Positions 15,311 through 45,835 of a DNA stretch of 64,000 nucleotides are shown here, in pieces. The notes below the pieces were generated by a model. It made no database searches and was not told the DNA's origin. It was given only the letters and a program-made list of their open reading frames with translations. Each line of letters starts with the position of its first letter. Positions within the stretch are counted from its first letter, which is position 1. The translations under genes and the position numbers were made by a program. Source of the stretch: Ligula intestinalis (lineage: Eukaryota; Platyhelminthes; Cestoda; Diphyllobothriidea; Diphyllobothriidae); assembly GCA_036362985.1 (NCBI GenBank), contig JAYGXS010000009.1, positions 21,207,159-21,271,158 of the forward strand, given 5' to 3'.

Positions 15311-15329
15311 GAAATATTAATATCTAGAA

Positions 15330-16135: not shown

Positions 16136-16164
16136 AATATATCTGGACCCCGAATATTCGCGCA

Positions 16165-17755: not shown

Positions 17756-17829
17756 TCGAAACACCCTCTATGTTTACCACCACGCTCCCCCCCACCCGCC
17801 GCCCATCGCATCCGTGTTCAGCATTTGAT

Positions 17830-19690: not shown

Positions 19691-19694
19691 GCTG

Positions 19695-20085: not shown

Positions 20086-20400
20086 GTATGTATGCGCCGC
20101 GGGCTCTATGCTGTGGCCGGCATGGTGACCCCTTTTTATTATAGGGTAGTTGGTGTTACTTGGCGACGCGGACACTAGCAACAAGCCTAGAATTGGGGGA
20201 GGGGAATGGCAAGCAATGTGCCCCGAAAGACCTGCCTAAAGTGCACCTTGCGGTCCGCAGTTTCACAACTGCGCGCCCTAAAACGCTAATTGGACCCTCT
20301 TGAGGCTCGTTGGGCAGACCCCGAACTTCTGGAGGTCAGGTCAGGCGTACAGAGTTGCTTGATGACCAAACACGCGCGCAGCAAGGGACGGGAGCAGGTG

Positions 20401-22689: not shown

Positions 22690-25105
22690 GTTTCGGTGTC
22701 CGGCTTAGGCGGCCATACAAATCCTTCCCGTCGAATAAAGAGTCGCCCGTCAAGCTAGAGGAATAGGTCTTGTGCACGCAAAACCCGTAGTTACGGTAGA
22801 TGCAAAACGTGTTGACCCGATACCAGTGCGTAGTGGTCAAAATCTCATCGTTCAGTCAAATTAAGTATGCATCCGCCTTCCTTTTCGAGTCTACTGGGAC
22901 CTCAGGGGGTCTCTAAGCGCAGCTCATCATCGGGCGCGAAATCTTCCACAACCCTCAGTTACCTTCATAATCTTTACAGGATTATCTCCATAGTCAGCCT
23001 TTGTCATGTGTCTGTGCGTGTATGGACTCAAAGGTCAAGGAAGAGTGGGGCACCAACGTTAGAAGTACCTGGTTTGAATGCATGAAACATTCCCAGGCGC
23101 TACTTTGAGGTTGTACTCCATGTGTGTGTGTGCACGCTCCCACTGGGTCTCAGGTCCCACCTCAGGTAGTCAAGCAGCTAGGTGGTTGCAGACGATGGGA
23201 AAAGGGAGTGAGGTCGACCCTCGGCGCGTTTTTCTCCTCACTACAATAAATATGAATGGGCCTTAATCTATCATGCTGCGCTAAAACCCGTGGCTTGGTG
23301 GGTTTGCCAACTGACGGGATAACTCAGGCACCCTACGCTGCTGCTCCTTTAGTACGCGTGTGTTTGTGTGTGCATATGTGAGGAGATGAAGGACTGAGAG
23401 TCAGGCTGCAATGGCTCATCCATAATGTGGCCTTGATGTCGCTCCCGCGCAGGCGGGGGCCTTCCTAGCGAGTTGTACTGAGTCAATTATGCGCGTGATG
23501 AGTGACTATCGCACCAACCACCTACACACCCCTCATCCCCGGTATTATTGACTTCCTCTTTACACCGGAAACGGAGGTGGGAGTGGCGAGCGAGTGGGCA
23601 GATTCCCCGCAAGTCTGCTTTAACTCTTGTTTCATTCGCGGTAGTTCGCTAAGTTGCTTTTAGCTTGCTGTAGCCTTCCTGCAGCTTGCCCAGCTTGCCT
23701 CAGTGTCTGCCTCGGCTTTTGCTGCGGCTTGCTGGAGCACGCGGTGCCCATCGTCAAAATCGATGATGAAACTGTCATGTGTGTGCATGGACTGAAAGGT
23801 CAATGTCGAATGCTGCACCACAGTTAGAAGTACCTGGTTTGAATGCATGAAGCATTCCTAGGCCCTATTTTTAGGTTCTACTCTATTCGCAGTTTTCTTA
23901 TCGCCTCTACCCCGAGGGCACGTAGCTGCCAGGCGTGAATCCCTGTGGAGTCCTCTGACCTCGTGAGAACACAGAAAAACACAGATATGCGCACTGCAAT
24001 AACTGCGGCAAAAACAAATAAACGGCCGACACCAAGTCTAGCCTAGCCAAACTAATAGTGCGTAGCACCGCAAGCCAGCAAAACGTAGCAATAAATCTAA
24101 GGAAATAGCTCCTGTGCACGCAGAACCTGTGCTTATAGTAGCGACAAAAGAGCTGATCCGACACCAGTGCGCAGTGTCAAAAATGCATCGCTCTGTCAAA
24201 TTACGTGTACGTACATTTGCCTTTTCGATTCTACTGGGACATCAGAGGGCCTTTTAAATAAGCTCATCACCGGGCGCGAAATCTTCCACAACCCTCAGTT
24301 TACCTTAATCATCAGTATCAGTGTATTTGAGGGTTACCTTTGAACTCTCTTTTTGCACATGCGTTTTGTGGTGTCAGAAAATAGTATCTCAACGTGTTGG
24401 CGAGGCCAGCTGACCGTGAGCCTATGAGGTGGAACACAGTCAAAAAGAGCTGACAGTGAAAAAAATTCCTTGAGATTTTTTAGGAGAAAAGAAATGCCGC
24501 TCTTGTGGAAGGATCAAATGGGGAGGGGGCATCGCAGAGGTCACCGGGATCACCACCGAAGTTTGGAAGATGCAGATGCCAGATACTCCCATGCCGATTG
24601 CAGTCTGCCGACGAGGTTGCGAAAGCAGTAATATCCGCCTGGATCGTGGAGATTCCGCTGCGGCAGAACGTTTAGGGGCCGCGTTGACTATAGCCGTAAG
24701 GCTGGACAGATGCGATCGCTGATAAGATCCTCACGGTTCACAGATATTCAAGTTTTTACAGGATTATCTCTAAGTTCAGCCCATGTCCATGTGCGTGTGG
24801 ACTTACAGATGAAGTTTGAGTAACGCTAACATCAGACGTATCTGGTCTGACTGCATGAAGCATTCCTAGGTTTTTTTCTTTGAGGTTCTACTCCACTCAC
24901 TGTTTTTTTTTACGGCCATGATTATCTGCCTCCAAACTATGCAGCTATCAGGCGTGAGTTTTTATGTAGTCCTTTGACCTCGTGCGAACGTAAATAGCGC
25001 AGAAAAACACAGGTAAGCGCATTGCATTAACTGCGGCAAAAAGAAATAAACGACCGACACCAGCCTAGCCCAGCCTAGACAAAATAATAGTGCGTGGCGC
25101 TACGA
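22690..25105. repeat. composite repeat, three partial copies
   Basis: Three blocks recur. Block P has 'gggcgcgaaatcttccacaa' then 'ccctcagtt' (22750-22960, 24110-24310). Block Q has 'tttacaggattatctc' and 'gcatga.acattcc.agg' (22965-23120, 23755-23890, 24755-24880). Block S has 'cgtgagaacacagaaaaaca' and 'aactgcggcaaaaa.aaata' (23890-24085, 24900-25105). Order differs between copies, so it is either a rearranged array or a larger element. Confidence 0.7.
23118..23660 (+). repeat. dispersed repeat R1, copy 1
   Basis: It shares 'gctcccactgggt', 'gcggttgcagacg.tgg', 'cggtgcgctaaaa.ccgtgg' (ctgcgct here), 'ccaactgacgggataactca' and 'gctcccgc' with copies at 33498-34400 and 38085-38660. No ORF is conserved between copies. 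Confidence 0.75.
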
Positions 25106-25272
25106 GCCAGTTGGCCCATGTCCATGGCAAAAAGAGTGTCATTGTGACCTGAACTTATGGTATACCGAGTTAGTACAAGCAAATACTCCCGAAACGACCA
25201 TTCTAGACAGGTGCGATGCCAAAAGCTACACATAAATCGGCGATCTCTACATACTCCCGATCTAAACCGAAG

Positions 25273-25432
25273 AAGCAACGAGACCGTGGTGCAATGGTAC
25301 AATGGTAAACTCAATGATCAAAGGTCCCGAGTTCGAATCTCGGGTGATCCACACCTGGGATTGGGTATGACAGGCTGATGACGGCTAATTAGCTAGAAAT
25401 GGCCATTCCGGTCTCACTTTGCATTGTCGGAT
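25273..25432 (+). repeat. SINE family 1, tRNA-like head and core
   Basis: A box 'ggtgcaatggtacaatggta', B box 'gagttcgaatctcgggtg', then the core 'gggtatgacaggctgatgac', 'ggctaattagctagaaat' and 'ggccattccggtct'. This is the clearest core in the window. Its head resembles that of 3166-3325. Confidence 0.8.
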
Positions 25433-25574
25433 CCCCTTCCATACACAATATACCCTAATCACTGTGCAATAACGTAAGGAAGAAGTATCATAATTTCGGG
25501 ATAAAAACCGTTGAGGTTAAACACCTCCAGTGGCAGACGGCACTGCTGGGGAAAGCTCCGTATAAATAACTTAC

Positions 25575-25716
25575 GGAGGTTCACGAAGATACTGGAGTTT
25601 GGCAAAGGGCTCTCCGGATGTGCCCGGAGTGTCGATGCGGATTCTGTCTGTGCTGGTGCGAGAACTGGTGTTATCATAGGAGATGGAGGCGTTCCAGAGG
25701 CCGCCAGTAGCACTGT
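25575..25716 (-). CDS. candidate coding exon, same strand as JIP3/4
   Basis: A 142 bp block begins after an acceptor (cttccgtag) and ends at a perfect donor (cctcc|gtaagt). Taken with one carried-in base it is fully open and reads SATGGLWNASISYDNTSS... ending ...FAKLQYLREP, with C/G-ending codons that look coding. Entry is phase 1 and exit is phase 2. The RH2 exon at 28806 leaves in phase 2, so it cannot join directly; another exon would be needed between. I do not recognise the protein. It could be the variable region after RH2 in JIP3/4. Confidence 0.4.
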
Positions 25717-26330
25717 CTACGGAAGAATGCCTCCCATGTCGACGAAATAACCGCGAAAAGCTGTCAAAAAGAAGACGAATGCCTAGATTATTTGTGCATT
25801 TAATTGGAGAAATCGTGTGGCAAGGAAACTACCTTTCGTTTGCTTCCACAGACGCTAGAGAGGAAGTAAATAATGTTAGCGAAAGAAATCAATGATTCTC
25901 AGAAAAACGCGACTAGGCACCCTCGCAAAGCGCAATAATTTCTCTGACAATGAGAGGGTACATTTTGAAGTAAACTACGACAAGTGTTGTCTGTGAGGCT
26001 GTCGAAACAACCAGCAACAGTGCAAACTAAGAACCCTGGCAGGCTAAGCTATTGTATGCAGAGATTCTGTAGATGGAAAAAACTTTTTCAACGTGTAAAA
26101 CAGCACGAGAGTTAGCAGATGAAAAGCCTTAAAACAGCTGTCGGTAAGGGGGTATTTAAAGGCACTACCCTCGTTGCAGTAGGCAGGAAATGGGACCATG
26201 AAGAAGGGGTTTTGCGTTAAACGCCTAAGAAATTAGGGCTAGAGTTAGGATTAAGGTGAGGGTTAAGGATAGCGCTAAGGTCGGGGATATGGTTAAGGTT
26301 TGGGTTAGTGTTACGGTACGGGAGAATTTC
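25717..26330. other. no gene seen; TTAGGG-like motifs at end
   Basis: Unique-looking sequence. From 26230 it has degenerate 'gggttaagg', 'ggttaaggtttgggttag' motifs. Confidence 0.4.
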
Positions 26331-28805: not shown

Positions 28806-29014
28806 AAAGTGAGAAAACTGTTTCGATGACCGGGCTCCCGCAGCCATGGTCGAGGATCAGTTTGATTGTCCTGTCCACGCGCATGGAGCACCTCGCTCCA
28901 GCGCATTGATTCCCGCAACTCATAGAGGTCCTCCTTCAATTGGTTCCTCTCCAAGAGCACGCGGGCCATCTCATCACGAGTGAAACGAGTCCGCTTTGAG
29001 AAGGGGGTTCCCTC
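28806..29014 (-). CDS. JIP3/JIP4-like scaffold, RH2-domain exon
   Basis: This 209 bp exon lies between an acceptor (ttctttctggcag) and a perfect donor (ctttt/gtaagt type, GT at 28805-28804). It reads [20 protein letters not shown] then [20 protein letters not shown]. This matches the RH2 block of vertebrate JIP3/JIP4 (RFTRxEMARVLMERNQYKERLxELQEAVRWTE), one of the most conserved parts of the family. In the family RH2 binds Rab GTPases (phosphorylated Rab8/10) and links vesicle cargo to motor proteins. Entry is phase 0 and exit phase 2. The three N-terminal exons are on the same strand at 41984-41158, about 12 kb upstream. A sequencing-level break is not seen. Confidence 0.9.
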
Positions 29015-29560
29015 CTGCCAGAAAGAACAAGCCATCATCATCTTCACGTAAGTCAAGATCGAAACTAGGTAGATTTACCGCTAATCAAGACCCACTTAAA
29101 AGAGACGACTGTCTGGGACCTGAGTGAAGACGTTCAACGTAAGAAGTGACAGTAAAACGACAAAAAAACACGAACAGTTTTCCCCCAAAAAGTCTACTGA
29201 CAAAGACACAACCCATTGGAAAAGACATTTCTTGTTTAGCGACTACGGTCAGTCGGCTATATCTCAACCAAAAGAACACAAAAACATGTCTTTAGTTCAG
29301 TCAAATAACGAATGGGAAAGGAAAAATATCACACTTAAGATTGTTAGAAGAAGAGCACGAAGGGTGACAGTTTCCCACTGTACGAAAAGATCATTTGCAG
29401 AAATCATCTACGTCGATTATTTACGAGTTAAACTATTAACAACAACTCAGGGAAAAAAGACTTACAAATCGAATCGCATTTGCGCAGGAAAGTATTGTCA
29501 GGAGTCAGGCTAACCGGCTGCGAGCATGATCTTGTAGGCTTTTTCAAAATGTTTATTGAC
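29015..29560. other. intron sequence, unrecognised open frame
   Basis: A 129-residue plus-strand open frame (29124-29513) is Lys/Arg/Thr-rich, matches nothing I know, and lies in the JIP3/4 intron on the opposite strand. It is probably chance. Confidence 0.35.
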
Positions 29561-29565
29561 ACTTT

Positions 29566-30227
29566 TTGACATCGGTCATAGATTATATAATCAGCCAACT
29601 AGATGTAGGCGTCGTAGATTCCGAAGCTGTCGGACGCATGCTTTTACCATTTGGAGTTGGAGCCGCTCATAGGCCAAAGGTAAACATTCGGCGTCAGATA
29701 ATGCAACCAAAAGAACCACTTCCACAGCAGGATACTTCTGGAGTCGTCTATAAGGTTTGCGGACAAAGCATCTACGTCGGAAATACTGTAAGACTTACCG
29801 AGACGACAACGGCCGAATACGCGGCAGCAGTGCGACGACATGACGCCCGTTCTCAAATTGTGGCTCATTTGACGAGACCCGGCCACACATTTGAACTTGA
29901 TGAGGGCAAAATTCTCGCGAGATTAGACAACCGTGTGAGCAGCCAGTTGCTTGAGTCGTGATGTACGGGCCTCCAGTGCAAGTGCAATGACGTACCCAAA
30001 CCACATTAGGTGCTCAGGCTCAGTTTGGCCAAAACAATTCGCCCCTCGGGAATCACACAGACGAACGCATCACCTGACGCCAGCGCCAGGGGGTCAGATG
30101 GCCAAGCAATCGTCAGACCCAAATCCAACACGGGTGAAGAGAGTCCAGCAGGTTGACCTCCAAGCAATTAGTGCAGAAGTGGGCAACTATCCCCGTTAAG
30201 GAGAGGCGTTAATTGTCATAGGTATGC
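29566..30227 (+). mobile_element. Penelope-like element 3' half
   Basis: The plus strand reads PFGVGAAHRPKVNIRRQIM (the linker before the nuclease) and then the GIY-YIG segment: DTSGVVYKVCGQSIYVGNTV with EYAAAVRRHDARSQIVAHLT, RPGHTFELDEGKILARLDNR and a stop after SQLLES. The nuclease is recognisable but has lost part of the WCSCGxCNYVGET block seen in the neighbour copy. Its 3' untranslated region runs on, is interrupted at 30228-30333, and resumes at 30334-30400. Confidence 0.8.
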
Positions 30228-30333
30228 CAATACAAGCGAACATCCGTGTCCCAGGAAGCAATTGAGAAGAAGAAGAAGAAGAAGAAGAAGAAGACTCGAT
30301 CGCTGGGACAGTGATCGAGTCTTCTTCTTCTTA
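30228..30333. mobile_element. hairpin insertion made of PLE termini, 12 bp flanking repeats
   Basis: The sequence tcataggtatgc occurs immediately before (30216-30227) and again at the far end (30334-30345) of this 106 bp segment, as a target duplication would. The insert is a minus-strand PLE terminus with an expanded aag tract, followed by a short plus-strand terminus. It can fold on itself: 'aagaagactcgatc' (about 30287-30302) pairs with 'gatcgagtcttctt' (about 30313-30326), extended by the aag/ctt tracts. Confidence 0.65.
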
Positions 30334-30402
30334 TCATAGGTATGCAGTAGCATAGCGACGGTATCCTATAAATACAGCAACTACCTGTGTATGAATTCCA
30401 AT

Positions 30403-31078
30403 GCAAGCGAACATGCGAGTCCCAAGAAGTAATTGATAAGAAGACGACTCGATCGCTGGGACAATACTTTTATTCGCCTGACGTTTCGAGATCCGTCGCG
30501 GATTCTTCATCAGAGGCATAGTCAAAGAGCAGTAGCAGAAACGGGTAATACATGCACAGAGGTTTGCAGTATTTATAGGACGCAATCATTGCTGCAAACA
30601 TACACAGACAATTATCATTAACTGCCCTCTTGTGCATGGATAGTCTGTTGGAGGGCATGTGGGCTCTGACCTGTTGAACTTTCATCACGCGTGGTGGACT
30701 GGGGCGTGATGATTGCTCGGCCATCTGGCCCTGTGGTGTTTGCGTAGGCCTGTCCGTACCCCAAGTGGCGACTTGCTTTGGCCAAATTGAGTCTCAGCAC
30801 CGAATAAGGATTGGGCGAATCGTTGCACTTGTTTATGGATTGGGGGCCCGTGAACCATGACTCAAGTACTTCTCGGCTCACCCGATTGTCATCTCTTGCA
30901 AGAATTTCGGCCTCATTAAATTTGAGTGTGTGGCCAGGTCTCGTCGAATGAGCCGCAACTTGAGAATTGGCATCATTTCGCCGCACTGCTGCCGCGTGTT
31001 CGGCAATTCGCGTCTTGAGAAGTCTGCCAGTTTCTCCGACACAGTTTTTTTGCCCGCAACTGCACCAGATCCTGTAGA
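30403..31078 (-). mobile_element. Penelope-like element 3' half, inverted
   Basis: Minus strand: an intact-looking GIY-YIG nuclease from 31078, reading RIVYRIWCSCGQKNCVGETG, RLLKTRIAEHAAAVRRNDAN, SQVAAHSTRPGHTLKFNEAE and VLESWFTGPQSINKCND, to a stop at 30618. The 3' region holds the hammerhead-like core at 30517-30476 and the terminus to 30403. It is oriented tail-to-tail with the plus-strand PLE at 29566. Its 5' end is cut at about 31080, where a plus-strand PLE terminus begins. Confidence 0.85.
30476..30517 (-). ncRNA. hammerhead-ribozyme-like core, best copy
   Basis: Minus strand order: GCCT, CTGATGA (30513-30507), stem II with bulge (GA-A-TCC / GGATC), GAAAC (30487-30483), GTC (30482-30480), AGGC. 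The GCCT/AGGC stem I is perfect. Stem III is missing, fitting the Penelope-associated variants. Core bases are all consensus. Confidence 0.65.
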
Positions 31079-31079
31079 C

Positions 31080-31215
31080 GATCCGTTTTTGCTATTGTCT
31101 CGGATGACGGATCCGCGACGGCATTCGAAACGCCAAGCGAATAACATTTTGTCCCAGCGATCACATCTACTTCTTCTCAATTACTTCCTGGGACTTCTAT
31201 CATCTCTTGTATTGG
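31080..31215 (+). mobile_element. PLE terminus, plus strand, degraded core
   Basis: It reads 'cggatgacggatccgcgacg', 'cgaaacgccaagcgaataac', 'gtcccagcgatcacatctac' and 'caattacttcctgggact'. The CUGAUGA core is mutated to CGGATGA and GUC to GCC, so it is inactive. It sits inverted against the 5' break of the preceding PLE. Confidence 0.55.
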
Positions 31216-31224
31216 CAAGAGCTT

Positions 31225-31450
31225 AAGAGTTTGTGCACATGTGGGGGTCAGGCAAGCGGAAGTGCCTTAAAACCACGATGAGGGGGCAAATACATACTGA
31301 CGCTCGTCTGAATCTATCGTCTAGCATACCTTAGGTAGCGATACCGATTGCGGTTTGTCAGATTTACTACAGCGAGGAGTGGGCTGATCTCCCACGAAAA
31401 TGAATTCACCCCAACCGGCCTCAATGTCTGTCACAGGCCACGAGGTTAGG
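31225..31450 (+). repeat. dispersed repeat R2, copy 1
   Basis: It shares 'gtgggggtcaggcaagcg.aagtg', 'ctgacgctcgt', 'actacagcga' and 'tctcccac.a.gaa.a.gaattcacc' with 32610-32890. Confidence 0.65.
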
Positions 31451-32110
31451 CTTAGTAGCTAACTAGGTGCTGACTTCCTAAAAGCGCACACAGGCCCTAT
31501 TATAGCATACTATTTACTAGCCTCAATAAGCATGATTACTAGAAGTAACACTTTAGCATAGGCACATACTTCTGGTAGCAGTATCCTAGTCCTCGTAGTC
31601 CGAACCCAGTAGAAACAGACATTGCCTGATGAATAGAGTTGAGAGGGCGGAACTAAGGCAAGCTCTGATGTGCTCAGGGTCTCAAACATGTATTAACTCG
31701 GAATAGCTTGAATCCAGATTCACACTCTTTGTTGGTATGAAGAGGTATGAGCCCTAGCGTGATAGTTAATCCGCGTCACTTGACTAATACTGCTGTCAGA
31801 AATAGTGCCAGTACTACTAACAGTCAGCCACATTTATATTTATTAGTAGTAGCCGTATCAGGCTCGGCCGTCTTGAGCCTGCCTTGACATTTACTGGGGG
31901 TAGGTAGTATCTGCGCAAAGTCTGCTGTCACTCATGATTAAGTAAGGCGGCGTTTTCTGGCTTGCATTGGAGAAAATGGCCAACGACACATCCGGTCTGT
32001 TCTTCTTGACCCATAGTGAACGTGAATAGTGCGGTTGGTGCTAAATACGTCTGCTATCACTTTAAAGCTAACCCCTGTGGCCAGTCACCAACACTGCACC
32101 AACCTGTTGG
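31451..32110. other. no feature seen
   Basis: No gene, RNA or shared repeat recognised. Confidence 0.35.
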
Positions 32111-32119
32111 TGCATATGA

Positions 32120-32485
32120 TGGACCTCATCGAAATCGATGGTCCGACAGTCAAGAGTAACTGAAATGTCACGCGCACTCGCTGTTCTTCCATTTCACGTG
32201 ACCGGTCTCCATCCAAACGCATGCAGTTCTTATGCATGTTGCAAATAAGAAGTCACCAAATTGTGTAGTACAGTAGGTGAGTAGGAAACATTGATCAGGT
32301 CATAGTTTACGTGGATGGCAGAACAGGCTCAGGCATAGCCCGGATGTACTTATGATGCGTGTCGGGAGCCTCAGAGGTGATGAAACGCAGGTCGGGTGCA
32401 TGGCGGGTTGCTGCATGTTTGTAAAAGAGTGCACACGGCAGAGTAGGCACCCCATTCGGTTTTGGAAAGTGAGATGAATGTTGAT
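32120..32485 (+). repeat. R1 repeat, 3' portion
   Basis: It shares 'ctcaggcatag.ccggatgt', 'gggttgctgca.gtttgta' and 'ggcagagtaggcacccc' with 34060-34395, where this part directly follows R1 copy 2. R1 is therefore nearly 1 kb long when complete. Confidence 0.65.
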
Positions 32486-32609
32486 CTTTGCTCTGTTAAA
32501 ATTTCTTCCGGGAAAACAATGTTTCAATTCCACCTTTCAAAATGTTAATTGACGTTTTATGAGATCGGCCGACTGGATGTTGGCGTGGTAGGTGACAGAA
32601 ATAAACCGC

Positions 32610-32890
32610 CTGTGCATGTGGGGGTCAGGCAAGCGAAGTGACTTGAAAGCCCCGCTAAGGGACAATCACGGTCTGACGCTCGTTCTTAAGGAGGACCGGG
32701 TGGCTCTGTCCCTAGCACTCCTCTGAGGCAGCGGTTGACAGAACAACAACAACAACATCGCGATAGATTCCGGCGCATAAGAATCACTACAGCGAAAAAT
32801 GTGCTGGTCTCCCACCACGAAGACGAATTCACCGTGACTGGCCTTCACCTTTTGCGCGCATCAATGTCATGTGCACAGGAGGCCTGTCGG
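32610..32890 (+). repeat. dispersed repeat R2, copy 2
   Basis: Second copy of the 31225-31450 repeat, with a short caa run at about 32741-32755. Confidence 0.65.
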
Positions 32891-33090
32891 CTGACTGGCC
32901 ACGATACATTCTAATGCCCCTTGATGTGGCGGTACGCATAGAGGGCGGCCTCGGTCGCGCCAGCCACCTGCGCCTGATCCCACCTTCGGTCATCTTAACC
33001 ACGTGGGTAAAGGACGAGAGAGTGCGAGAGATGTAGTACAAGTCACTTTAAAATAGGCAAATGTCACATCACCGTACCTGCACCCCCCTG
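32891..33090. other. no feature seen
   Basis: Nothing supported. Confidence 0.3.
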
Positions 33091-33109
33091 ATGTGATGTA
33101 CACGTTGGA

Positions 33110-33330
33110 CATCATAAGCTTCTTCTCATTTCCTTTCCCCCCCCTTCCTCTCCTTCTTACTCGTTATCCCTCATCCATGTGTATCTTTATCTATCTTTCT
33201 CAGTTTTCTTTCGTTCCCTGCACTCTCTCTCTCTCTCTCTTCTTCTTCATCTTCTTCTGCCCGCCCACAATTACAAGATTCACCAGCGTGTCTGTCTGTC
33301 TGTCTCTCCCTCCTAGCCCAGCACACGGAC
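33110..33330. repeat. pyrimidine-rich low-complexity tract
   Basis: tc-rich sequence with a (ct)n run at about 33223-33241 and (tctg)n near 33291-33306. The Phe/Ser-rich reading through it is an artefact. Confidence 0.8.
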
Positions 33331-33497
33331 GCCAACCGGCAACAGAGCATAAGTAGTGCTTTTTCAGTCGATGACTGAATGGTTACCCCGTCTCAGAAGG
33401 GTGTTGGCCCAGGCTTCGTGCAGGGCTGCTCTCACCCCTCTGAGATCCAACGTCTGTATGCACATGCAATGCCAGACTTCGACAGGTTCTGCCTACC

Positions 33498-34400
33498 TGT
33501 CGGTGCATGCGTTCGCGCTCCCACTGGGTTTTAGGCCCCACCTCAGGTGTCCGAGTAGCTAGGCGGTCGCTAGACGGTGGGGGAGAGAGTGAGGTTGACC
33601 TTCGGCGCGTTTCTCTCCTCACTATAGTAAATATAAAAACGCTTGAACCTATCACGGTGCGCTAAAAGCCGTGGCTTGGAGGGTTAGCCAACTGACGGGA
33701 TAACTCAGGCCACCTACTTTACTGCTCCTTCCGTACGCGTGTGTTTGAGTGCGCGTGTGTTTGAGTGCGCGTGTGTGAGGAGGTGGAGGACAGAGAGTCA
33801 GGCTGCAATAGCTCCTTCTTAATGTGGCCTGTATGGCGCTCCCGCAAAGTCGGGAGCATAGCTAGCGAGTTGGCTGAGTCAAGTGTGCGCGTGCTTCATG
33901 ACTATCGCGCCAGCCACCTACATCCTCCCTCCTCCCCGGTCTTATTGACCTTGTCTTAGGACCGGAAATGGAGGTTAGACTGGCGAACAAGTGGGCAGAT
34001 TCTCTGCGTAAGTTACTGCGTCTGTCTCAGCTAGCTGGAGCCCGTGGTGAAGATCGTTCAATCCGACGATCGAATTACCGTTCGCAGCTGACATGATGCG
34101 CGTCACGAACATGCTGGTCATCCACTTCAGGTGACCAGACTTCAGCCAAAGGCACAACGTGTCTCGAATATCAGGTTGGCTAATTGCGTAATGCAGTTAG
34201 TGAGAGCATGGCAAATTAATCAACTCAGGGTTTACGGGTTTATGTGGGTGATAGAAGAGACTCAGGCATAGGCCAGATGTGCTCACGCATGTCGAGGTGA
34301 CGAAGGGTGGGTCAGGTTTGTAGCGGGTTACTGCAGGTTTGTACGTGCGTACACATATGGCAGAGTAGGCACCCCCATACGGCGTCGGAATGTATGTATG
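33498..34400 (+). repeat. dispersed repeat R1, copy 2, longest
   Basis: It contains the whole R1 body (gctcccactggg ... gccaactgacgggataactc ... accggaaatggaggt) and the 3' portion also seen at 32120-32485. A short tgtgtttgagtgcgcg tandem lies at 33740-33775. It does not encode a conserved protein. Confidence 0.75.
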
Positions 34401-35855
34401 TGTGTGGGTTGGCTAGTGATCGGTGGGACTCCTGAAACTGGTTGTCCAGTCAGAGCGCAATGCACTCGCGCAGGTGATCAAGTGGTATTTCTGATCACAA
34501 GACGGACTACAAGTTAGCAGTAGGTGGCATTTCTGACGATAATGGGGGAATGTCTCCGTGGCCTGCTAGCGTTTGCTTTGCTAGGTGTAAGCAGCATGAA
34601 CCCATATGATGATCGCTAGTTACAACGACCACACTACTAGCTCAGAAACGATGAACTTCGTGTTGATACCAAGAAGGACACAGCTGGAAGTGTGCTCGTC
34701 TCTCTCTCTCGCTCTTCCAATGAACGCGAGGGATCAGTAGCTTTCACAGCTACCGAGTCCGCATAAATTACATATCGACCTCATCAGAGCTAAAGCAGTT
34801 TCGTCCCCCAAACTGTCCTCTCTATGCAAATATGCAGTCAATCAGGTGAGTTTGGCAGTGTGTTGAGGAAAATGCGTGAAAGTGAGGTCGATGCGGGTTT
34901 TTACGACTTTGCAAAAACCTCCAGTGATTTTCAGATACGAGATGCATGATATGAAAGAGGCTTTGTGATGTCTTTCAGGTCCCTTCAACATATTCCGTCC
35001 AAATGTATATCTAAGACTCCGTTTTAGAGAAAAATTAAAAAAGCTACACCTTAAGACAGCTCGCGTACACCATGAGAGTTAGATCAAAGTGAAGCAGAAG
35101 GAAACGATTATGTACGCAGTTCCGCGTGAAAACTCTGAAGCCGCATCACACAGGAATTCGCAATGCTAAGCACGGTTCTAGGAAACCAAGATGCTTGCAG
35201 CATAGTTCCACTCAATCCATGTCAAGGTGGCACAAATTGTTCGCACTTCTATAGACAAGCGGCTAAAAAGTTCAAATGTATTGTCCTTGAGCGATGTGAA
35301 TGCTTTCGTGATGAAGAGTCACGAGGCACGCAGTTAGGCCTCCGCAGCATAGTGCAACGTTAAATTCCATTTGTTCGCAGACTCCACGAGCAGGCCTTGT
35401 ACTGTGGAGTGATGAAGGTTATTAGTCAGAGGCTGCATTGACATCGATAGAACTGACCTTTGATCTGCGATCGCTACCGCCTTTTTAGAACCTCAAGTTT
35501 CCTTGACAGCTTGTGCACTTCTGACTTTAGAGAGACTTGGACTGAGTCTGATTGTTAGGTTGTCACTTTAAGCGCTCTATGCCAGGTATCATGAAAGGCG
35601 GATACGTTTAAAACGGATGAATCATCGCTGCATGATTGCGGTAGTATCGCCGCCGCAGGCAGGAGTTAATTTGATAAGTGCGAAATCCCAACCGATAAAT
35701 AAACACCTATTTCATCCGGAGAGAGCCCAATCACAGACAGCGTAAACACACTCACGCATCACCCCAGGAGGCGCAATCAAGACAGGATATGCGCAAACAA
35801 AGTCTGCGACACAGCATAAACCGGTGAAGGTGTTTTGGAGCAGATCCAAGGCATG
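34401..35855. other. no clear gene; Cys-containing open frame
   Basis: A plus-strand frame at 35163-35363 reads DACSIVPLNPCQGGTNCSHF, whose C-x7-C-QGGTN-C spacing recalls the first half of an EGF-like domain, with later cysteines out of place. It is preceded by a possible acceptor (catcacacag). The evidence is too weak to call a gene. Confidence 0.3.
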
Positions 35856-35859
35856 CTAG

Positions 35860-36605
35860 GTGCCAAGAGGATATATGTTTACCTTAGAGAAGCACCCATC
35901 TTAACACCGGAAAATTGTACACAATCATCCGCTAGGATAGTGGTAAGCCCCCGATACTCTGTGATTCTGTTCGCGAGGTGAATGGAGGTTTTATTGCCGA
36001 CAACTCGGCCAAGGACGATCACTGGCGTGAACACTTCGAGCACCTACTCAACTTTGACGAACAACCCATAACACCCTCCCTCTCCTCCACAGCGGAGTTT
36101 CAACCCTCTCCTGCCTACGCAGTGTAGTGTGACTGCCCTTCCGAATACGAAGTTACCGATGCAATGCAGAGGTAACGCAACAACAAGGCGTGCGGAGAAG
36201 ACGGTATTCCTGCGGAAATCTACAAGTCCTGTGTCGACACTCCGTCTCCTCGGCTTCATGAGGTTATTGTACAGGCGTGGCGAGAAGAGGCCGTTCCAGA
36301 TGAGTGGGGTTCAGGCATCCTTGTACCTGACCACAAGAAGGGAGATAAGAAAAGATGCAAAAACTACCGTGGCAAAAGTTTTATCGATGTTGCTGCAAAA
36401 ATCTTCGCTATTGTTCTTCTCAGAAGCTTCCAGTCTGTACGTGATTTCAGGACACGACCCAACCAAGCCGGATTCCGAGCGCGGCGTGGATGTTCGAATC
36501 AGATATTCACACTGAGGTGCCGCCAATCGCCACGCATGGAGAGGTACCGTTCGTGACATCATTGAGGCCAGCTAGATCAGGCATGATCACAGCCGTAACA
36601 AGTAC
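35860..36605 (+). pseudogene. RTE-like LINE with internal deletion
   Basis: The plus strand reads the start of an RTE-like RT: KDDHWREHFEHLLNFDEQP, DGIPAEIYKSCVD, AWREEAVPDEWGSGILVPDH, KKGDKKRCKNYRGKSFIDVA, and RPNQAGFRARRGCSNQIFTL, with stops near 36127 and 36172. At about 36515 it jumps directly to the last 20 or so codons (HAWRGTVRDIIEAS-like) and the 3' end shared with 17381. The palm with its catalytic motif and the thumb are deleted. Confidence 0.85.
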
Positions 36606-36639
36606 AAGTAAGTAAGTGCACCCACTTTGACCCATGACA

Positions 36640-36835
36640 AGTGACAGTTTGACCATCAATTTCGACTATCTCCACTGTAGGCTCCACAACAGGATGGTGC
36701 AGAAACGGTGAATTAGTTTCAAGGGATCGTAGACTTGCGAAGCATCTATCGCACTCTCTCTATCTCTTGCGCTTCTCTCAATTCCCTGAAGCCGTTGTTA
36801 AGACAGAGATAAGGAGACTGCAGGCGGGATCGGGT
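36640..36835 (+). repeat. repeat shared with 17560-17755
   Basis: See the copy at 17560. Again it sits about 60-200 bp downstream of an RTE-like 3' end. Confidence 0.55.
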
Positions 36836-38084
36836 GCAGAGGATTAGAAGGAGCCGCAGCCGTCTGACTCCCAGTCTACTCATAAGGCACTACACACAAC
36901 ACACACTGAGCTGATGGTGTGTTGGTTAAATGCATCAGCTGGTTGCTTTCTCAGCCACAGTAAACTGCGATAGTCACGTACTCGCATCACACATGTAGCA
37001 TGGGCACTGTATGCGGAAGGAACCGGGAGGCAGCCTTACTTGATGAGCTTGCAAACTTACTTTCATACATACCTCGAGTCTAATATGACAATTAAAGTGA
37101 CCTGTATTGTCACATGCGCTTACAACGCTGGCTCAAGTCAGCGCTGAGAGTGAAGCCTGATTTTCCGGCTATTGACGTCCCCTCTATGTATGGCTGCCGT
37201 CGAATAGATTCTCCGGTATTCGTATTTTACAGTCGCTCGTGAAAAACAAACAGCTGTATGGCCTTAAACTGGGTCCAAACAGTCAGGAAAACGAAATAGC
37301 CTAATGGTTTATAGCACACTCGTATTATGTTATTCGAAATACTTTACACTAGGTGCAGCTGTTGGGAGTCAAAAAAACAAGGGGGAGGGGACAATAACGA
37401 CTTGTTAGTTTAGTAAATGCCAATCATTTAAAAGGATGACAACGACGTTCAGTCTTCATTTGTCGTAAAAAGCTGGAAGCTGCTGAGTCAATGGAGACAA
37501 TAATAATAATGATGATTTTCCTAGGCTGAAAGAATAATTCTGAAGATCTATTAAATGGAAAATGCAAAAACTTTAATCGTGAGCTTTTGCGACCGGCGAG
37601 GATTCCTGTGGTCATATAATATAGAAAAAGAAGAGGATAGGGCACTGAAGTCACATGACGCTGTGTACGCTATGTGTACGCAAAATCAGCCCAATTGCTT
37701 GGCGGCAACACTAAGTGGTTATTGTATAAGCGCATGCCAAGGTCACATTATATCCAAAAAGTAGGAACTACTCCACATTTGACAGCCGAATCCAGCCGTA
37801 CACTTAAACGCTCCTCCAATCTGTAAGTTTGACTGCTTACGAAGAACGGCGTCCTTGTCCGCTTTTTTCGCTCGCTTAGATGCGAGCACGTGTATCCACC
37901 AGATGGATGTTGCATGAACGCGTGTAGCCAACTGACGCACTTACCATACACACCATCAGTCAAGTGTGTGTGCGTGTTGTGTGTGGAGTGACTGATGAAA
38001 AATACTGGGAATCAGAGGGCGCCGGCTCCTTCTAATCTGTGTGTGTCAAGGGGGCCTGGCCATGCTGTCGTGTGCGCAGACGGG
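36836..38084. other. no feature seen
   Basis: About 1.25 kb with no recognised gene. A short taa/tga-rich tract lies at 37498-37514. Confidence 0.35.
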
Positions 38085-38660
38085 TTCGCTAGCACTCTCA
38101 GTCACTGCGCCCAACCCATCAGCTAGGTGGTGGCATATTGCTGACGGTGGGGCAGAGAGAGAGGTCGATCTCTAGCGCATTGCCTTCCTCGCTATAATCA
38201 ATCTGACACGCCCAAAGCCATCACGGTGCGCTGAAAGCCACAGCTTGGAGGGTGGTCAACTGATGGGATAATTTGGACACCGCAGTCATCCCAGTGTGTG
38301 TCTTATCGAGCGGAGTGGTTGACGGGCTGCAATAGCTCTTTCTTAATGTGGCTTTTATGGCACTACCGCGCACGCGGGAGCCTACCTAGCAGGGTGTGCT
38401 GTTAGTACGCCCATTGGAGTGTTAGTCACGCCAGCCACCTGCGTCACCCTCCCCCCCCCATCTCCAGTCTTATCGACTCTTGTCTTGACATCAGATACTG
38501 GTATGGGAGTGATGAGGGAATAGGGTAGATCCGGCGAGTCTACTTCCCCTATAATCCAACCATAGTCTCCGCGTCTACCCTCAGAATTCTGAAGCGCATG
38601 GTGGACAGCGACGGTCGAACTGTCAAGGAGGATAATGAGCGATTCTTGGACCTCCATTAG
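38085..38660 (+). repeat. dispersed repeat R1, copy 3
   Basis: It shares 'ggtggggcagagagagaggt', 'cggtgcgctgaaagccacag', 'gggtggtcaactgatgggat' and 'cttgtcttgacatcaga' with the other R1 copies. It ends just before an RTE-like 3' end. Confidence 0.7.
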
Positions 38661-38679
38661 TTGGAACTCCGCATTGAGG

Positions 38680-38790
38680 AAGAGAATGGATCAAACTGTC
38701 CAGATCTGCTGCCATGGATCGTCACGCGTGGAGAAGTACCAACCGGGACATCCTCGAGGCCGGCTAGATCAGTTATGATCGCTGCTTGGC
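38680..38790 (+). pseudogene. RTE-like LINE 3' terminus
   Basis: Reads MDRHAWRSTNRDILEAG and then the 'ctagatcagttatgatcgc' end found in the other RTE-like copies. Only the last codons survive. Confidence 0.65.
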
Positions 38791-39525
38791 TCTCGAACGG
38801 AAAATGGTGAGAGGATGCTGCAGTTTGCCGAAAAGAACCGACTGTTTGTTACCAACACATCCTTTCAGCGTCGTTACAAACATCTACCGACTTGGTATTC
38901 AAACGATGGCCATACGGTCAGTCAGATCAATTACATTCTAGTTGGTTCACGGTTTTGCAGCTGGGTCCACGATACCAGGTCGATGCGAGGTGCTGAAACT
39001 GGTAACGTCCAAGGGTTTGACCATGCTCTTGTTCGCACGCGCCTGAAGGTTCACCTCTCATCTGCGCCCACACTGCCACGTGCGAGACGCCTTGATGTCG
39101 AAAAGCTCCGGCAAACCAACACTACCGAGGCTCTAAGCACAGAAATCCAGTCCTGTCTTATGACCCAGGCTGACAACGAGGGCAGTAGCAAGTGGCCATC
39201 ATTGAAGACATCAATCTATGGGGCAGCTGAGAAGATTCTTGGATTCACTCAGCGGCGCCGCAGTGACTGGATCAGCGGAAGAACCCTGCAGCTATCGGCC
39301 GAGACGACTCGAGCCAGGTCCCGTAACGATGCCTCCTGCCGCCAACTTGGAAAGCTGACAGCAAAGTCGGCTAGAGATGACCGGCAGAAGTATTGGTCCG
39401 AGACGGCGACGTCTTTGGAGTAGGATTCTAATGTTGGTGACACCCGAAAATTATACCAAATCATCTGCCAGGTTAGTGGTAAGCCGCCGACACTCTGTGA
39501 TTCTGTTCGCGATGTGAATGGAGGT
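38791..39525 (+). pseudogene. RTE-like LINE endonuclease (EEP family) fragment
   Basis: Open from 38815 to 39423, it reads LFVTNTSFQRRYKHLPTWYS, NDGHTVSQINYILVGSRFCS and MRGAETGNVQGFDHALVRTR. This is the C-terminal half of the apurinic-type endonuclease that nicks target DNA, with the IxYI and SDH-like (here FDHALV) motifs, followed by the linker to the RT (TRKLYQIICQVSGKPPTLCD, VRDVNGGF). The linker overlaps the sequence at 35945-35990 in the other copy. A stop at 39421 breaks it, and a PLE terminus cuts it at about 39526. Confidence 0.85.
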
Positions 39526-39527
39526 TT

Positions 39528-39640
39528 TGAAGAAAAAGATGCGATCACTGGAACAAGGACTTTATTTTCGTAACGTTTCGGATTCCGTCGGGAATCCTTA
39601 GTCATAGGTAATCGTAAACAGGTCTGAGACATGCGCAGAT
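39528..39640 (-). mobile_element. PLE terminus, second type, minus strand
   Basis: Inverted counterpart of 14650-14775: 'gactttattttcgtaacgtt', 'tcggattccgtcgggaatcc' and 'ttagtcataggtaatcg' on plus. There is a stem II-like hairpin, but no CUGAUGA core. Confidence 0.5.
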
Positions 39641-40251
39641 AGGGGGCGGGGAGGGGTTGTGTGGATTGTTTGGACGAAAATGGCATGCATCTCGAAATAA
39701 AGCGCTACTCTCGCTCTCTCTCTCTCTCTCTTTCGCTCGCCTCCCATACAACCCCCGTCTCGGAGCGACCGACTGGCTTTTGAACACGTGACTCTAACAA
39801 CAGCGCCACCCAGCAAATAACGCCAAAAATAGACTGTTCGGTATGACGCCCTCGTAAACCCTGAGCCTGTCACGTGGATTGCTGAGGCCTTCAACAACAC
39901 CCAGGTACACCTGCAGGCCGGCCGTCCATTCAACAGACAACTTGACCCCGGGTTGCGGCTGCACGTAAAACGTTCGATTAACCTTGACCTTTTATGTGGA
40001 CTGGCTGACTTCGTCGAAAAATGCAGGCAAGGAGCAAAAACAAGAAAACCATCGGGGTAGCCAGAATCAACACGCTGGTGAGCAAAGACGTAGATTGCTG
40101 GTGCATCCGAAGAATTCGCTCGACTGCTCAGCGAATTCGGGATTGGCATCGCTCACCGACCGGAAGCGAGAATCTGCAGGTGCAGCCTAAACGCCCAATA
40201 CCCGTTAACCTAAAATCCGGCGTCATTTAACGCATCGACTGTTTTTTTGGA
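39641..40251. other. no gene seen; CT run
   Basis: A (ct)n run lies at about 39713-39732. Open frames around 39600-40230 on both strands overlap and are not recognised. Confidence 0.35.
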
Positions 40252-40351
40252 NNNNNNNNNNNNNNNNNNNNNNNNNNNNNNNNNNNNNNNNNNNNNNNNN
40301 NNNNNNNNNNNNNNNNNNNNNNNNNNNNNNNNNNNNNNNNNNNNNNNNNNN
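40252..40351. other. assembly gap (100 N)
   Basis: Exactly 100 N, a conventional size for unknown gap length. It lies inside the JIP3/4 intron, where a missing exon could be hidden. Confidence 1.
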
Positions 40352-41157
40352 AACTGAGTATCGATCTACCATTCCGGCCATGGCCAGAAAATGTTTTGCC
40401 TTTGCTTTTCATTTAATCTAAATTAATAATAATCAAGTGATCCTTATGAAAGGACTCTCTGTGCTCATAGGATATTTTACTGTACATATACACATAAAAT
40501 AAGTGGCTATGATTGAGTAAACATGATTTACAGGTAATATGCATATGCAAAAGCCGATGACACTGGCAACCTTCGGGCCAAAATGCCAGCAAGATTTTAT
40601 GGTCCGATAACGTTGTTGTACAAGCATTCAGATAGACCTCTCTCACGATTTCATAGGGAAGGCCTAACAGAGATGCCTGCTACAGTGGAACAATGTGTGG
40701 TGTTATACGCAACGGCGGTAAATTGTACATGTGCAGAAGACGCAACGTAAATTTAAGTATTTAGGCTTGATCTAATTACTGAGGAGCGGCGGTTTAGACA
40801 GCTCTAATGTTCAGTTTAGCAACTAGTCAAAGATCTACTTTATTCGCAAACATATAACGCTGCAGTCGTTTAGTTAGACAGTAGGATCATTGACGACGTT
40901 GATAGCCAGTACACTTAATAGGACGCGACCAGGCTGAAGTCCGAAAAACAATAAACGCGTACGTCTTGAAACTTTACTTGCATTGCAGTCAAAACCACAC
41001 GTGTATTCAATACGCAGTGACCATTGAGCCATTATTATGGAAATCAATAACCAGATATTGTAAAGAGACATGGCACAAAATATAATCCAATAAGAGGAAT
41101 ATACATGATAAGAAGCTATTTTTGATAGGCCAAATTCCCAAAAGGTATAGATCTTAC
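40352..41157. other. JIP3/4 intron, nothing else seen
   Basis: Starts (on the minus strand) with the gtaagatc donor of the third exon. No further exon is recognised here. Confidence 0.45.
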
Positions 41158-41984
41158 CCCAATCGTATGGCGAGTCGCCCTTGTGAGAAACGGATATTAG
41201 AGGACCTGAAATACCCGTGGTCAAACCATATGTAGACATTTCAGTCGATAATAATGCTGCTCCAGCTTTCGGCGCAGCGCCACTTATGTTCGGCTCAGCC
41301 AATTCTTGAGATGCATCAGCGGAAACATGTGCCTTTTCCAAATACTCAACATGAGCGCGAAACAGATCACCATAGCGTTGACGTAAGTTGCCGTAGGCAC
41401 TTCGTAGGTCAGATTCACGCTCTTCAAGTCGACATACTAGAGACTTAAGTCAATACTTTTTTAAGAAATTACTTTGGTCAATGGAATTTTTTAGTTTTAA
41501 CTCTAACAGACGCTGCGAGGAGGCGTTCGCTTGCTTTAGCGTCTCCATATTCTTTTTTGTTTCGTGTAATTCATCCTCCAGAGTGTATAAGTGCTGAAAG
41601 CAGGTTGTCCACGAAAACGACCAATAATACCTCCTCCATTACTTTTGCATCTACTTTTGCTGTCTCATATTTAGATAGAAGAATTGTGTTATGATCTTTC
41701 AGTATATCCAATTCTCTCGCCATCTTATCCTTCTGAAGTCCAAACTCGTTCAGCATCTCCAAAAGATTTGCGACCAAAGGCACGAGTGTGCTCAAGGGTT
41801 TTTCACCGTATGCATTCAAAATACTTTCAAACTCATTGTAGATGTCCATGGCTATTTGGTGCATTTTGACGTCACCGTCATTTGTAAAGTGGGTCCCCTC
41901 GACGTCCTCTTGGACGTTCCCAAAACTATCAGTCATTCTTGATGCAATTTTATGAACACCAGACAAAAAAAGATTATCCGACAT
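41158..41984 (-). CDS. JIP3/JIP4-like scaffold, three N-terminal exons
   Basis: Exon 1 is 41984-41631, exon 2 is 41593-41473 and exon 3 is 41436-41158. The start at 41984 gives MSDNLFLSGVHKIASRM. About residues 41-117 form the RH1 domain: DIYNEFESILNAYGEKPLST, LVPLVANLLEML, ILKDHNTILLSKYETAK. RH1 binds kinesin heavy chain in this family. Exon 2 encodes coiled coil (LEDELHETKKNMETLKQANA). The exon 2/3 join gives a RLEERESDLRSAYGNLRQRY block, matching RLEERESEMKKEYAALHQRH of vertebrate JIP4. All splice sites are GT-AG. Exon lengths 354, 121 and 279 give exit phases 0, 1 and 1. The RH2 exon enters in phase 0, so at least one exon between is unseen. The product would be a cytoplasmic JNK and motor-protein scaffold for axonal and vesicle transport. 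Confidence 0.9.
41437..41472 (-). other. mini-intron 2 of JIP3/4-like gene, 36 bp
   Basis: gtaatttc...gtctctag. It holds an in-frame stop, so splicing is needed to read through. Removing it restores the conserved LEERES block in phase 1. Confidence 0.85.
41594..41630 (-). other. mini-intron 1 of JIP3/4-like gene, 37 bp
   Basis: gtattatt...ctttcag, with exon reading frame kept on both sides (phase 0). Confidence 0.85.
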
Positions 41985-43065: not shown

Positions 43066-44036
43066 ATGGGCGACGAATACCACCAATTTTACGATTGCGA
43101 CGAAGATGATGCTGGTTCTAACAACTCGTGCATACCGCCTGATCAGGATGAGCCTCAGGCTTTTCAGATATCCATTAAGCTTCCCCGTACGAATTGCGTG
43201 ACCCGATGGTCTGGTTCAAACAGATCGAGAGTATTTTGGCCTCACGTCAAATTACTGGCGAGCGTACGCGTTACGTATACATAGTGCAGTACTTACCGTT
43301 TGATATCGCTTTCGCCGTTCAGGATCTTCTTGATCCTATCCCCAAAGTCAGGCTCTACTCTACCTTAAGAAAGGCTATTCATGAGCGTGCGGCACAATCT
43401 GCCGACAGCAAGCTTCGCCAACTCCTCAAAAAAGTGGAGCTCAGTGATCGAACGCTTTCTGCCCTTATGCGACACATGCGTCACCTGCTTGCTGGTCACA
43501 CCTTAGATGATCCTATTTTCCGTCGCATTTGGATGAATAAATTACCCTATCCAATGCAACACGTGCTCACCCTGCTTGACTATGATGTTCCACTGACCAA
43601 AATTGCGGCTTACGCAGACCGCATCCATCAATGTTACCCCGGTACTATTTCGTACGCTGTAAATAAAGCCTCGAGCTCAGTACCTCAGCATGCCGTCTCC
43701 CATGTTTCGGCCTCACGATCCGACCGTAAACCTGACAACCATACACAGCGAAAGTTGACTAAATCGCTTGATACCTCATCCCCGCGGTCTACTTCACCCT
43801 CTCAACCGATTCGAGACTTTATAGACAACAGAGATGACGACCTGCAGGATCTTAAAGATACTGTCAGGTTATTGTGCTCTCAAGTGAGCACGATGTGTTC
43901 CACACTCAACCGGCTTCAAACCAGTCGTCCCTCTGTATGCCGCAATCGTTCTGAATCAAAAGAGCGTGCCGACGACAAGGTCTGCTGGTACCACCGAACA
44001 TTCGGCCCGGATGCTATTAAATGCGTCCTGCCTTGA
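43066..44036 (+). pseudogene. Gypsy Gag
   Basis: The start at 43066 (MGDEYHQFYD) runs to a frameshift near 43190, after which the second frame (from 43194, about 280 residues) carries the capsid: DPMVWFKQIESILASRQITG, RTRYVYIVQYLPFDIAFAVQ, LSALMRHMRHLLAG and MNKLPYPMQHVL. Near the end is a zinc-binding-like CWYHRTFGPDAIKC (CX3HX9C), a form typical of flatworm Gypsy Gag rather than the usual CX2CX4HX4C. Gag would build the particle around element RNA. Confidence 0.8.
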
Positions 44037-44083
44037 TCTTATGCTAGACGTTCACGTTCGGGAAACGGCGCCGTCAGCCAGTA

Positions 44084-44370
44084 ATGGCGACGACTGTTGC
44101 TGGTCACTCGCGATACAGTCCCCTGTTTTACGTGACCGACAAGTCCACAGGGTTCCGTTTCTTGATCGATACAGGCGCAGAGGTTAACGCTTTACCACCC
44201 CCTCGTCGTCATCATCTCCAGCCATCGCAGTTTACACTGCAGGCTGCGAAAAACAATTCTATCGCCACGTTCGGTCAACGGTCCGTGACTTTAGACCTTG
44301 GGCTTCGTCACCGCTTCCAATGGGTCTTCATCCAGGCCGACTTCCAGTCGCCTATCATTGGAGCGGACAG
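44084..44370 (+). pseudogene. Gypsy aspartic protease
   Basis: Reads SPLFYVTDKSTGFRFLIDTG then AEVNALPP. DTGAE is the catalytic motif of retropepsins (usually DTGAxxS). It continues through FTLQAAKNNSIATFGQRSV to the flap-distal IIGAD motif at about 44355-44370, where the sequence breaks off into RNase H. Confidence 0.85.
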
Positions 44371-44371
44371 T

Positions 44372-44741
44372 TGCAGCCGCCAGTCTTCTTCTCCCAGAAG
44401 CTTCAGCCTGCGCAGACTCACTATAGTACTTTCTCGCGGAACTTCTCGCCATTTACCTAGCCATCCGACATTTTCGCCACCTGCTGGAAGGGAGAGATTT
44501 CCAGGTCTACACGGATCACAAACCTCTCACTTACGCCCTCAAAGCTAAGCCAGATCGATATTCGCCACGTGAAGTACGTCACCTTGACAACATCTCTCAA
44601 TTCACCTCAGACATACGCTATGTCCGCGGTAATGAGAATGTCATTGCTGATGCCTTGCCCCGTCCAGAGGTCAACGCTCTTATCACCACGTTAGACCTGG
44701 CGAAGCTTGCGGAATCGCAGGCGCTTGATGACTCCATCATT
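44372..44741 (+). pseudogene. Gypsy RNase H
   Basis: The plus strand reads YSTFSRELLAIYLAIRHFRH, then LLEGRDFQVYTDHKPLTYAL and QFTSDIRYVRGNENVIADAL, ending at a TAA at about 44741. ELLAIYLAIRHFR and TDHKPL carry the E and D active-site residues of the RNase H fold; VIADALPR is the conserved C-terminal end. It is in a different frame from the protease. Confidence 0.85.
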
Positions 44742-44744
44742 TAA

Positions 44745-45835
44745 ATGCTTGCGTCTTCTGTGCTTCAGCTGCGTGATGCTCCCCTCCCCGCGGCACCAGG
44801 CTCTATCGTGTGTGATTTTTCTACAGGTACTTTTCGTCCTGTAGTACCCCAATCCTACCGGAAGGTTGTTCTCGACCACTTCCACTCGCTATCCCACCCC
44901 GGTGTTCAAGCCGGCCGCAAACTCATCGCAGCCCGTTTCGTCTGGCCATAGATGAACACCGACATTGCTACCTGGACCAGGCAGTGCTTAGCCTGTCAAA
45001 AGAACAAGGTCGAACGACACACCATTTCACCTCCCAGCACGTTCGCGGTTCCCGACGCCCGTTTTCAACACGTCCACATGGATTTAGTCTGACCGTTACC
45101 CCCATCTCGCGGTTTCACGCACATTCTGACCGCTGTTGATCGTTTCACACGATGGCCCATCGCCTTTCCAATCTCAGATACCTCGGCAGAGAATATTGCC
45201 ATTGTTTTCCTTACGCACTGGATAGCCAACTTCGGTGTTCAATTTAAACTCACCACTGACCGCGAAAGTCAGTTTACATCTGCACTCTTCCGTGAGTTCA
45301 CCACACTGCTCGGGTGCTCGCATATCAACACCACTGCCTATCACCCAGCATCAAAAGGCCTCGTGGAACGCCTTCACCGCCAGTTGAAGTCCGCGCTGAT
45401 GTCTCAACCTGCCCCGCAACAAACTGCCGTTCGTCTTCCTGGTCATTCGCTCGGCTGTTAAGGAAGACATTCAATGCACTGCCACCGATCTCGTTTACGG
45501 CACATCCCTCCGTTTACCTGGTGAGCTCGTGCAGTCTTCCCCCGTCAACCCTGACGCTACGAACCACTTCGTACAACAGCTGCAGCAACGCATGGCCGCA
45601 CTGCGCCCAACCCCCACATGCGCGACACCTCGACGCGTTTTCGTGCACGATGACTTGCACACAACCCCATTCGTGGTTGTCCGGCACGACCCAGTTCGCA
45701 GGCTCCTTTGCCCACCATACGATGGTCCCTTTAAAGTGCTTTAACGGAAGAACAAATATTTCGGCATCCAAAAGTCTGATACTACTGAAACGATCTCCAT
45801 CGACAGACTGAAGCCGGCCTACGTTGAATGCACGA
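44745..45835 (+). pseudogene. Gypsy integrase
   Basis: An HHCC zinc finger (HFHSLSHPGVQAGRKLIAAR ... CLACQKNK) is followed by the DDE core. D lies in HMDLV (then a stop where glycine is usual), D in TTDRESQFTSALFRE, and E in YHPASKGLVERLHRQLK; all three catalytic residues remain. A frameshift follows at about 45415. The C-terminal region reads DLVYGTSLRLPGEL, then YDGPFKVL with a stop, then ETISIDRLKPAYVE. At least three stops and one frameshift break it. Confidence 0.85.

Follow-up and report, generated by a model that had tools for sequence, protein, structure and literature searches.

A JIP3/JIP4-type motor adaptor gene of the tapeworm Ligula intestinalis, with the exons of its second coiled coil most likely in an assembly gap

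Introduction

Do the pieces of a JIP3/JIP4-like gene that lie 12 kb apart in the genome of the tapeworm Ligula intestinalis belong together, and what lies between them? The question concerns a stretch of 64,000 nucleotides, hereafter the window (positions 21,207,159 to 21,271,158 of contig JAYGXS010000009.1, GenBank assembly GCA_036362985.1). A first reading, made from the letters and their open reading frames (ORFs) without database searches, had placed three N-terminal exons and an RH2 exon there, separated by what it took for a repeat-packed intron of at least 12 kb. Having followed it up with homology searches and splice modelling, we judge with a probability of roughly 90% that the window carries about the N-terminal half of one diphyllobothriid JIP3/JIP4 orthologue, whose LZII exons would most likely lie in an assembly gap. 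The gene itself is unremarkable: it is orthologous to a well-known motor adaptor, of the Sunday driver/UNC-16 type.

Results

One minus-strand gene with at least seven exons

The tblastn search with JIP3/4 orthologues that the sequence-only reading had suggested was run over the window. Protein SprV_0602121300 of Sparganum proliferum (P0002; 1415 aa) gave six significant pieces, each on the minus strand and arranged as in the protein: two of them cover exons 1-3, one is the RH2 exon, and three are new (25759-25577, 4429-4091 and 1297-1127). The protein is annotated as hypothetical and is a JIP3/4 by its Pfam domains; its RH1 domain, first coiled coil, RH2 domain and later exons align with the window in order. 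Fixing the exon ends from splice sites and phases, we obtained at least seven exons that cover 40,879 bp (41984 down to 1106) and hold 1,675 coding bases. Every exon is open, the splice sites are GT..AG, and successive exons lie 37, 36, 12,143, 3,045, 21,144 and 2,799 bp apart. The features of the model, in the direction of the gene, are the following.

41631..41984, minus strand: exon 1, RH1 domain; 354 nt, phase 0 out; likely start codon at 41984
41473..41593, minus strand: exon 2, coiled coil (LZI region); 121 nt, phase 0 in, 1 out
41158..41436, minus strand: exon 3, remainder of the first coiled-coil region; 279 nt, phase 1 in, 1 out (symmetrical)
40252..40351, no strand: assembly gap of 100 N; likely site of the exons for S. 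proliferum residues 237-393, with LZII
28806..29014, minus strand: RH2 exon; 209 nt, phase 0 in, 2 out
25575..25760, minus strand: fifth exon (FSRLFRR..., ending LREPP); 186 nt, phase 2 in, 2 out
4431..25574, minus strand: intron of 21,144 bp; flanking phases 2/2, protein alignment continuous across it
4094..4430, minus strand: sixth exon (..NKGWIAAPVACRPC..ALSNRMH); 337 nt, phase 2 in, 0 out
1106..1294, minus strand: seventh exon (ICHATCTFQNVGSILPSGEVLAGRSTFFTP..); 189 nt, phase 0/0, its 3' end the least certain

All seven exons match the S. proliferum protein in order and phase, reaching residue 692 of 1415, with identity at 204 of 235 aligned positions before a missing stretch and at 205 of 308 after it. 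The four exons noticed at the outset are thus present, on one strand and in the right order, but the gene extends further than had been seen: three exons (25760-25575, 4430-4094 and 1294-1106) and the 21.1-kb intron had been overlooked.

Exon 1 matches the RH1 family (Pfam PF09744, on 41571-42014) with E 1.6e-10 and 41.1 bits, above the curated cut-off of 24, and the RH1 domain of the first reading is confirmed. JIP3-type proteins of tapeworms, a bat, a butterfly and a nematode align with exons 2-3 in the LZI region. Introns 1 and 2, the two shortest, end in GT..AG; a shorter version of intron 2 was rejected for the stops that it creates. The nearest protein found for exons 1-2 comes from Dibothriocephalus latus, also of the Diphyllobothriidea: an RH1 domain-containing fragment of 246 aa (P0121), identical at 117 of 120 aligned residues in exon 1 and at 41 of 43 in exon 2. 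As a protein query, exons 1-3 found two proteins, the better being the same fragment (98% identical over 64% of the query).

The RH2 exon is 90% identical both to the S. proliferum protein and to AAHC03_020979 of Spirometra sp. Aus1 (P0001, 524 aa). In Pfam no family rose above its cut-off on this exon, PF11461 (RILP) reaching 14 bits against 24.8. Among PDB structures, a single JIP3 chain (8pr2_B) has its RH1 region matched by exon 1 (E 7.6e-09) and its RH2 region by the RH2 exon (E 1.6e-10); it is distant from the window gene, and the significant matches are confined to these two regions. Neither Rfam, at gathering thresholds, nor NCBIfam, with the two domain ORFs, gave a match. About 80 bp past the RH2-exon donor, at 28681-28726, stands a perfect AGA trinucleotide array of 15.3 copies.

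With 12 kb of sequence, repeats and a gap intervening, the RH2 exon might be thought part of a separate gene or paralogue, the more so as RH2 is found in other proteins (RILPL2 gave a weak match, E 0.04). However, both parts are close to the same two proteins: exons 1-3 and the RH2 exon together matched 428 proteins, and the best 120 listed are led by those of Spirometra sp. Aus1 and S. proliferum, each 87% identical. In each of these relatives, the RH1 and RH2 exons both match a single protein, which upholds the original view of one JIP3/4 gene. Moreover, the exons that follow the RH2 exon continue the same protein, correctly ordered and in phase. In tblastn, exon 25760-25575 gave E 2.75e-20 with the Spirometra and 1.37e-15 with the S. 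proliferum protein, and with the latter exons 4430-4094 and 1294-1106 gave E 4.14e-26 and 1.85e-17; spliced to the RH2 exon (29014-28806), the three yield 307 residues with no stop. A separate gene is, to our mind, scarcely credible.

The second coiled coil is missing from the known bases

In the splice model, as in the sequence-only reading, exon 3 is left in phase 1 and the RH2 exon entered in phase 0. Residues 237-393 of the S. proliferum protein (about 157 residues) were found nowhere among the window's 63,800 known bases. The JIP_LZII family (PF16471) falls at residues 306-373, inside this stretch, and LZII is present in both the S. proliferum and the Spirometra protein. Phases and missing residues alike support the earlier deduction that at least one exon is absent, and the position of JIP_LZII agrees with its guess that the second coiled coil was the part concerned.

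We cut the S. proliferum protein into 40-residue tiles and searched each in the window with a threshold of 30 bits. All ten tiles from residues 1-220 reached it, as did 10 of the 13 from the part after the missing stretch; from the missing stretch itself, none of six did (best 22.3). The D. latus version of its first part, which was expected to be nearly identical, likewise found nothing in the window (best E 0.60). The weak tblastn matches of the missing stretch, the best at 28972 on the RH2 exon (E 0.17) and others at 46471, 41951, 50108 and 26948, were set aside as chance or coiled-coil look-alikes; a lower value at 41176 (E 0.084) comes from the end of exon 3 carried in the query, not from the missing stretch.

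Since the interval shows no readable LZII exon, exon 3 could in principle be spliced straight to the RH2 exon over a true 12-kb intron, giving a JIP3 without LZII. Phase 1 is incompatible with phase 0: with exon 3 (or exon 2) joined to RH2 the frame is lost and a stop comes after 13 more codons, so the direct exon 3-RH2 join is excluded as a coding path; exon 1 to RH2 would stay open. The whole missing stretch is, besides, present in the S. proliferum and Spirometra proteins, and its first part in that of D. latus. We grant such a product next to no probability. The failure to find LZII exons in the known bases would also follow if they had truly been deleted in this worm and the gene broken. 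Yet all exons of the model are open, with GT..AG splice sites, a gap sits in the right interval, and D. latus, whose protein hardly differs in exons 1-2, carries the first part of the stretch. We consider a deletion very improbable.

The gap starts 806 bp past the end of exon 3, and 11,237 bases of the window separate it from the RH2 exon. In the D. latus fragment, exons 1-2 are followed by residues matching 234-324 of the S. proliferum protein, all on one contig of 10,420 bp; the D. latus exons for these residues must therefore lie near exons 1-2. Because the first missing part stands beside exons 1-2 on this 10.4-kb contig, we infer that the missing exons of L. intestinalis most likely lie in the gap 40252-40351. 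The gap is at the same time the sole link of exons 1-3 to the rest, and the scaffold might have been misjoined there, bringing two gene halves near each other by chance. Strand and order, however, fit one gene on either side of the gap, an outcome that would be rare from a random misjoin, and we hold this explanation, too, for very improbable.

Several points nevertheless weigh against a single gene with its LZII exons in the gap. The D. latus fragment covers the first missing part only, not residues 325-393, and it is without exon 3 and without about 20 linker residues, through prediction error or splicing. The 100 N are assumed to be a placeholder length. Finally, the 3' end of exon 7 is set solely by a consensus donor and the frame.

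Exon 3 in the D. latus model

The D. latus model passes from exon 2 to the stretch after exon 3 with its frame intact. Exon 3 could accordingly be a cassette exon, skipped as in that model, but we think this unlikely. An error of prediction would be the likelier cause, since the model is a computed one that also misses the linker residues. The fragment further ends in residues unmatched in the S. proliferum protein. If exon 3 were indeed skipped, the worm would produce a JIP3/4 lacking much of its first coiled-coil region, and the change might act as a switch from one motor to another.

The 12-kb interval and the 21-kb intron

The 12,143-bp interval between exon 3 and the RH2 exon should hold the missing exons and would then not be a single intron. 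The claim of one repeat-packed intron of at least 12 kb at this place is consequently not supported; the longest intron demonstrated in the window is instead that of 21,144 bp at 25574-4431.

As to what fills the interval, the earlier description was right about the 100-N gap and in part about repetition, in that 25.9% of 28807-41157 recurs elsewhere in the window (matches at E<=1e-5); the families that it named, Penelope and RTE, could not be firmly confirmed. Fifteen ORFs of at least 90 aa lie wholly inside the interval, nine of which were given to Pfam, and none of the nine passed a curated cut-off. The GIY-YIG (Penelope) match had E 0.067, below the Pfam cut-off. A reverse-transcriptase-like ORF at 36176-36556 matched retrotransposon polymerases in the PDB only weakly (best E 0.19), and ORFs 38779-39423 and 30618-31091 had no PDB match. 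With none of the tested ORFs above a cut-off, the Penelope and RTE labels are putative for this interval.

In the 21-kb intron, two reverse-transcriptase ORFs are above the Pfam cut-off (RVT_1 at 12751-13170 and 6376-7488), and 31.3% of the sequence has matches elsewhere in the window at E<=1e-5. Reading through past its LREPP donor meets an immediate stop. Retrotransposons and other repeats have probably enlarged the long introns of this gene.

The C-terminal part

The S. proliferum protein is a full-length single model, in contrast to the window, which is without residues 237-393 and has nothing after about residue 692: for residues 693-1415, none of 35 tiles reached 30 bits in the window. 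The C-terminal WD40-type beta-propeller (PF19056) is present in the S. proliferum protein, and its exons are not in the window. Because the gene runs towards the window's low end and the last matched exon ends 1.1 kb from it, the C-terminal exons probably lie beyond that end. A match of residues 818-949 to 44625-45020 (E 0.037; 0.003) was rejected, being on the opposite strand, with internal stops, among ORFs of a long terminal repeat (LTR)-type element.

Split and unsplit models in relatives

Does such a gene escape automatic annotation, as had been predicted? In Spirometra sp. Aus1 it is split over two models: AAHC03_020979 corresponds to residues 1-520 of the S. proliferum protein and AAHC03_020980 (P0123, 498 aa) to residues 916-1415, residues 521-915 being in neither. 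The second model was among ten proteins found with residues 522-1415 as query, for which the 7989 candidates sharing most words were scored. The two locus tags are consecutive, and the contig given for each has 46,404,308 bases. AAHC03_020979 ends in LREPQ, at the junction equal to the LREPP donor of the 21.1-kb intron in the window, where read-through meets a stop at once; we infer that the Spirometra model stops for the same reason. The Spirometra split thus falls at the junction before the 21-kb intron, not within the 12-kb interval.

In S. proliferum, by contrast, the gene is a single model of 1415 aa, and Taenia crassiceps (1242 aa) and Echinococcus granulosus (1240 aa) have long single models too, so splitting is not universal. 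The predicted split is seen in one relative.

Neighbouring elements

Further elements lie upstream of the gene.

43179..45811, plus strand: LTR-retrotransposon-like ORFs, with DUF7041 at 43179-44036 and the integrase core rve at 45093-45461
46973..48714 and 59647..61436: direct repeat of 1.8 kb, 87% identical, overlapping long minus-strand ORFs
51916..52015: second gap of 100 N, interrupting an open frame
53239..54168, minus strand: Exo_endo_phos_2 (E 1.3e-14), of the endonuclease-reverse transcriptase type, as in non-LTR retrotransposons

The LTR-like ORFs are on the strand opposite to the JIP3/4 gene and start about 1.2 kb upstream of its start codon. The ORFs beside the second gap are putatively reverse-transcriptase-like.

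Discussion

By homology, the product would be a dimeric coiled-coil adaptor that links cargo to dynein/dynactin and kinesin-1 via RH1-LZI and LZII, and its RH2 domain, to judge from the JIP3/4 literature, would bind Rab GTPases. In JIP3/4, the LZI section binds the dynein light intermediate chain and the kinesin-1 heavy chain, and LZII binds dynactin p150 and the kinesin light chain, according to PMC6831827; RH2 proteins of this family, including JIP3 and JIP4, are described as effectors of LRRK2-phosphorylated Rab GTPases in PMC12393467. Our literature searches listed a single paper for JIP3 in flatworms, on striated muscle, and nothing combining JIP3, RH2, leucine zipper and exon.

Long introns and abundant repeats are known from relatives. 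In the complete assembly of Spirometra Aus1, introns average 2400 +/- 3599 bp and genes 14,596 +/- 19,177 bp (PMC12249497); against these figures, the 21-kb intron lies about five standard deviations above the mean annotated intron. For S. proliferum and S. erinaceieuropaei, PMC8166898 puts repeats at about 53% of the assembly, with about 21% unclassified and about 30% long interspersed nuclear elements, mostly Penelope, RTE-BovB and CR1. When RNA reads were mapped in that study, introns were allowed a length of at most 10,000 (PMC8166898). Introns like the 21-kb one would then have gained no spliced-read support there. The single S. proliferum model may come from a later annotation than that run.

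Altogether, the locus illustrates how a conserved gene of diphyllobothriid tapeworms can be broken up by assembly gaps and by long introns that bear repeats. Broken models of this kind, such as the two in Spirometra sp. Aus1 and the 246-aa fragment of D. latus, would distort parasite gene counts and claims of domain loss.

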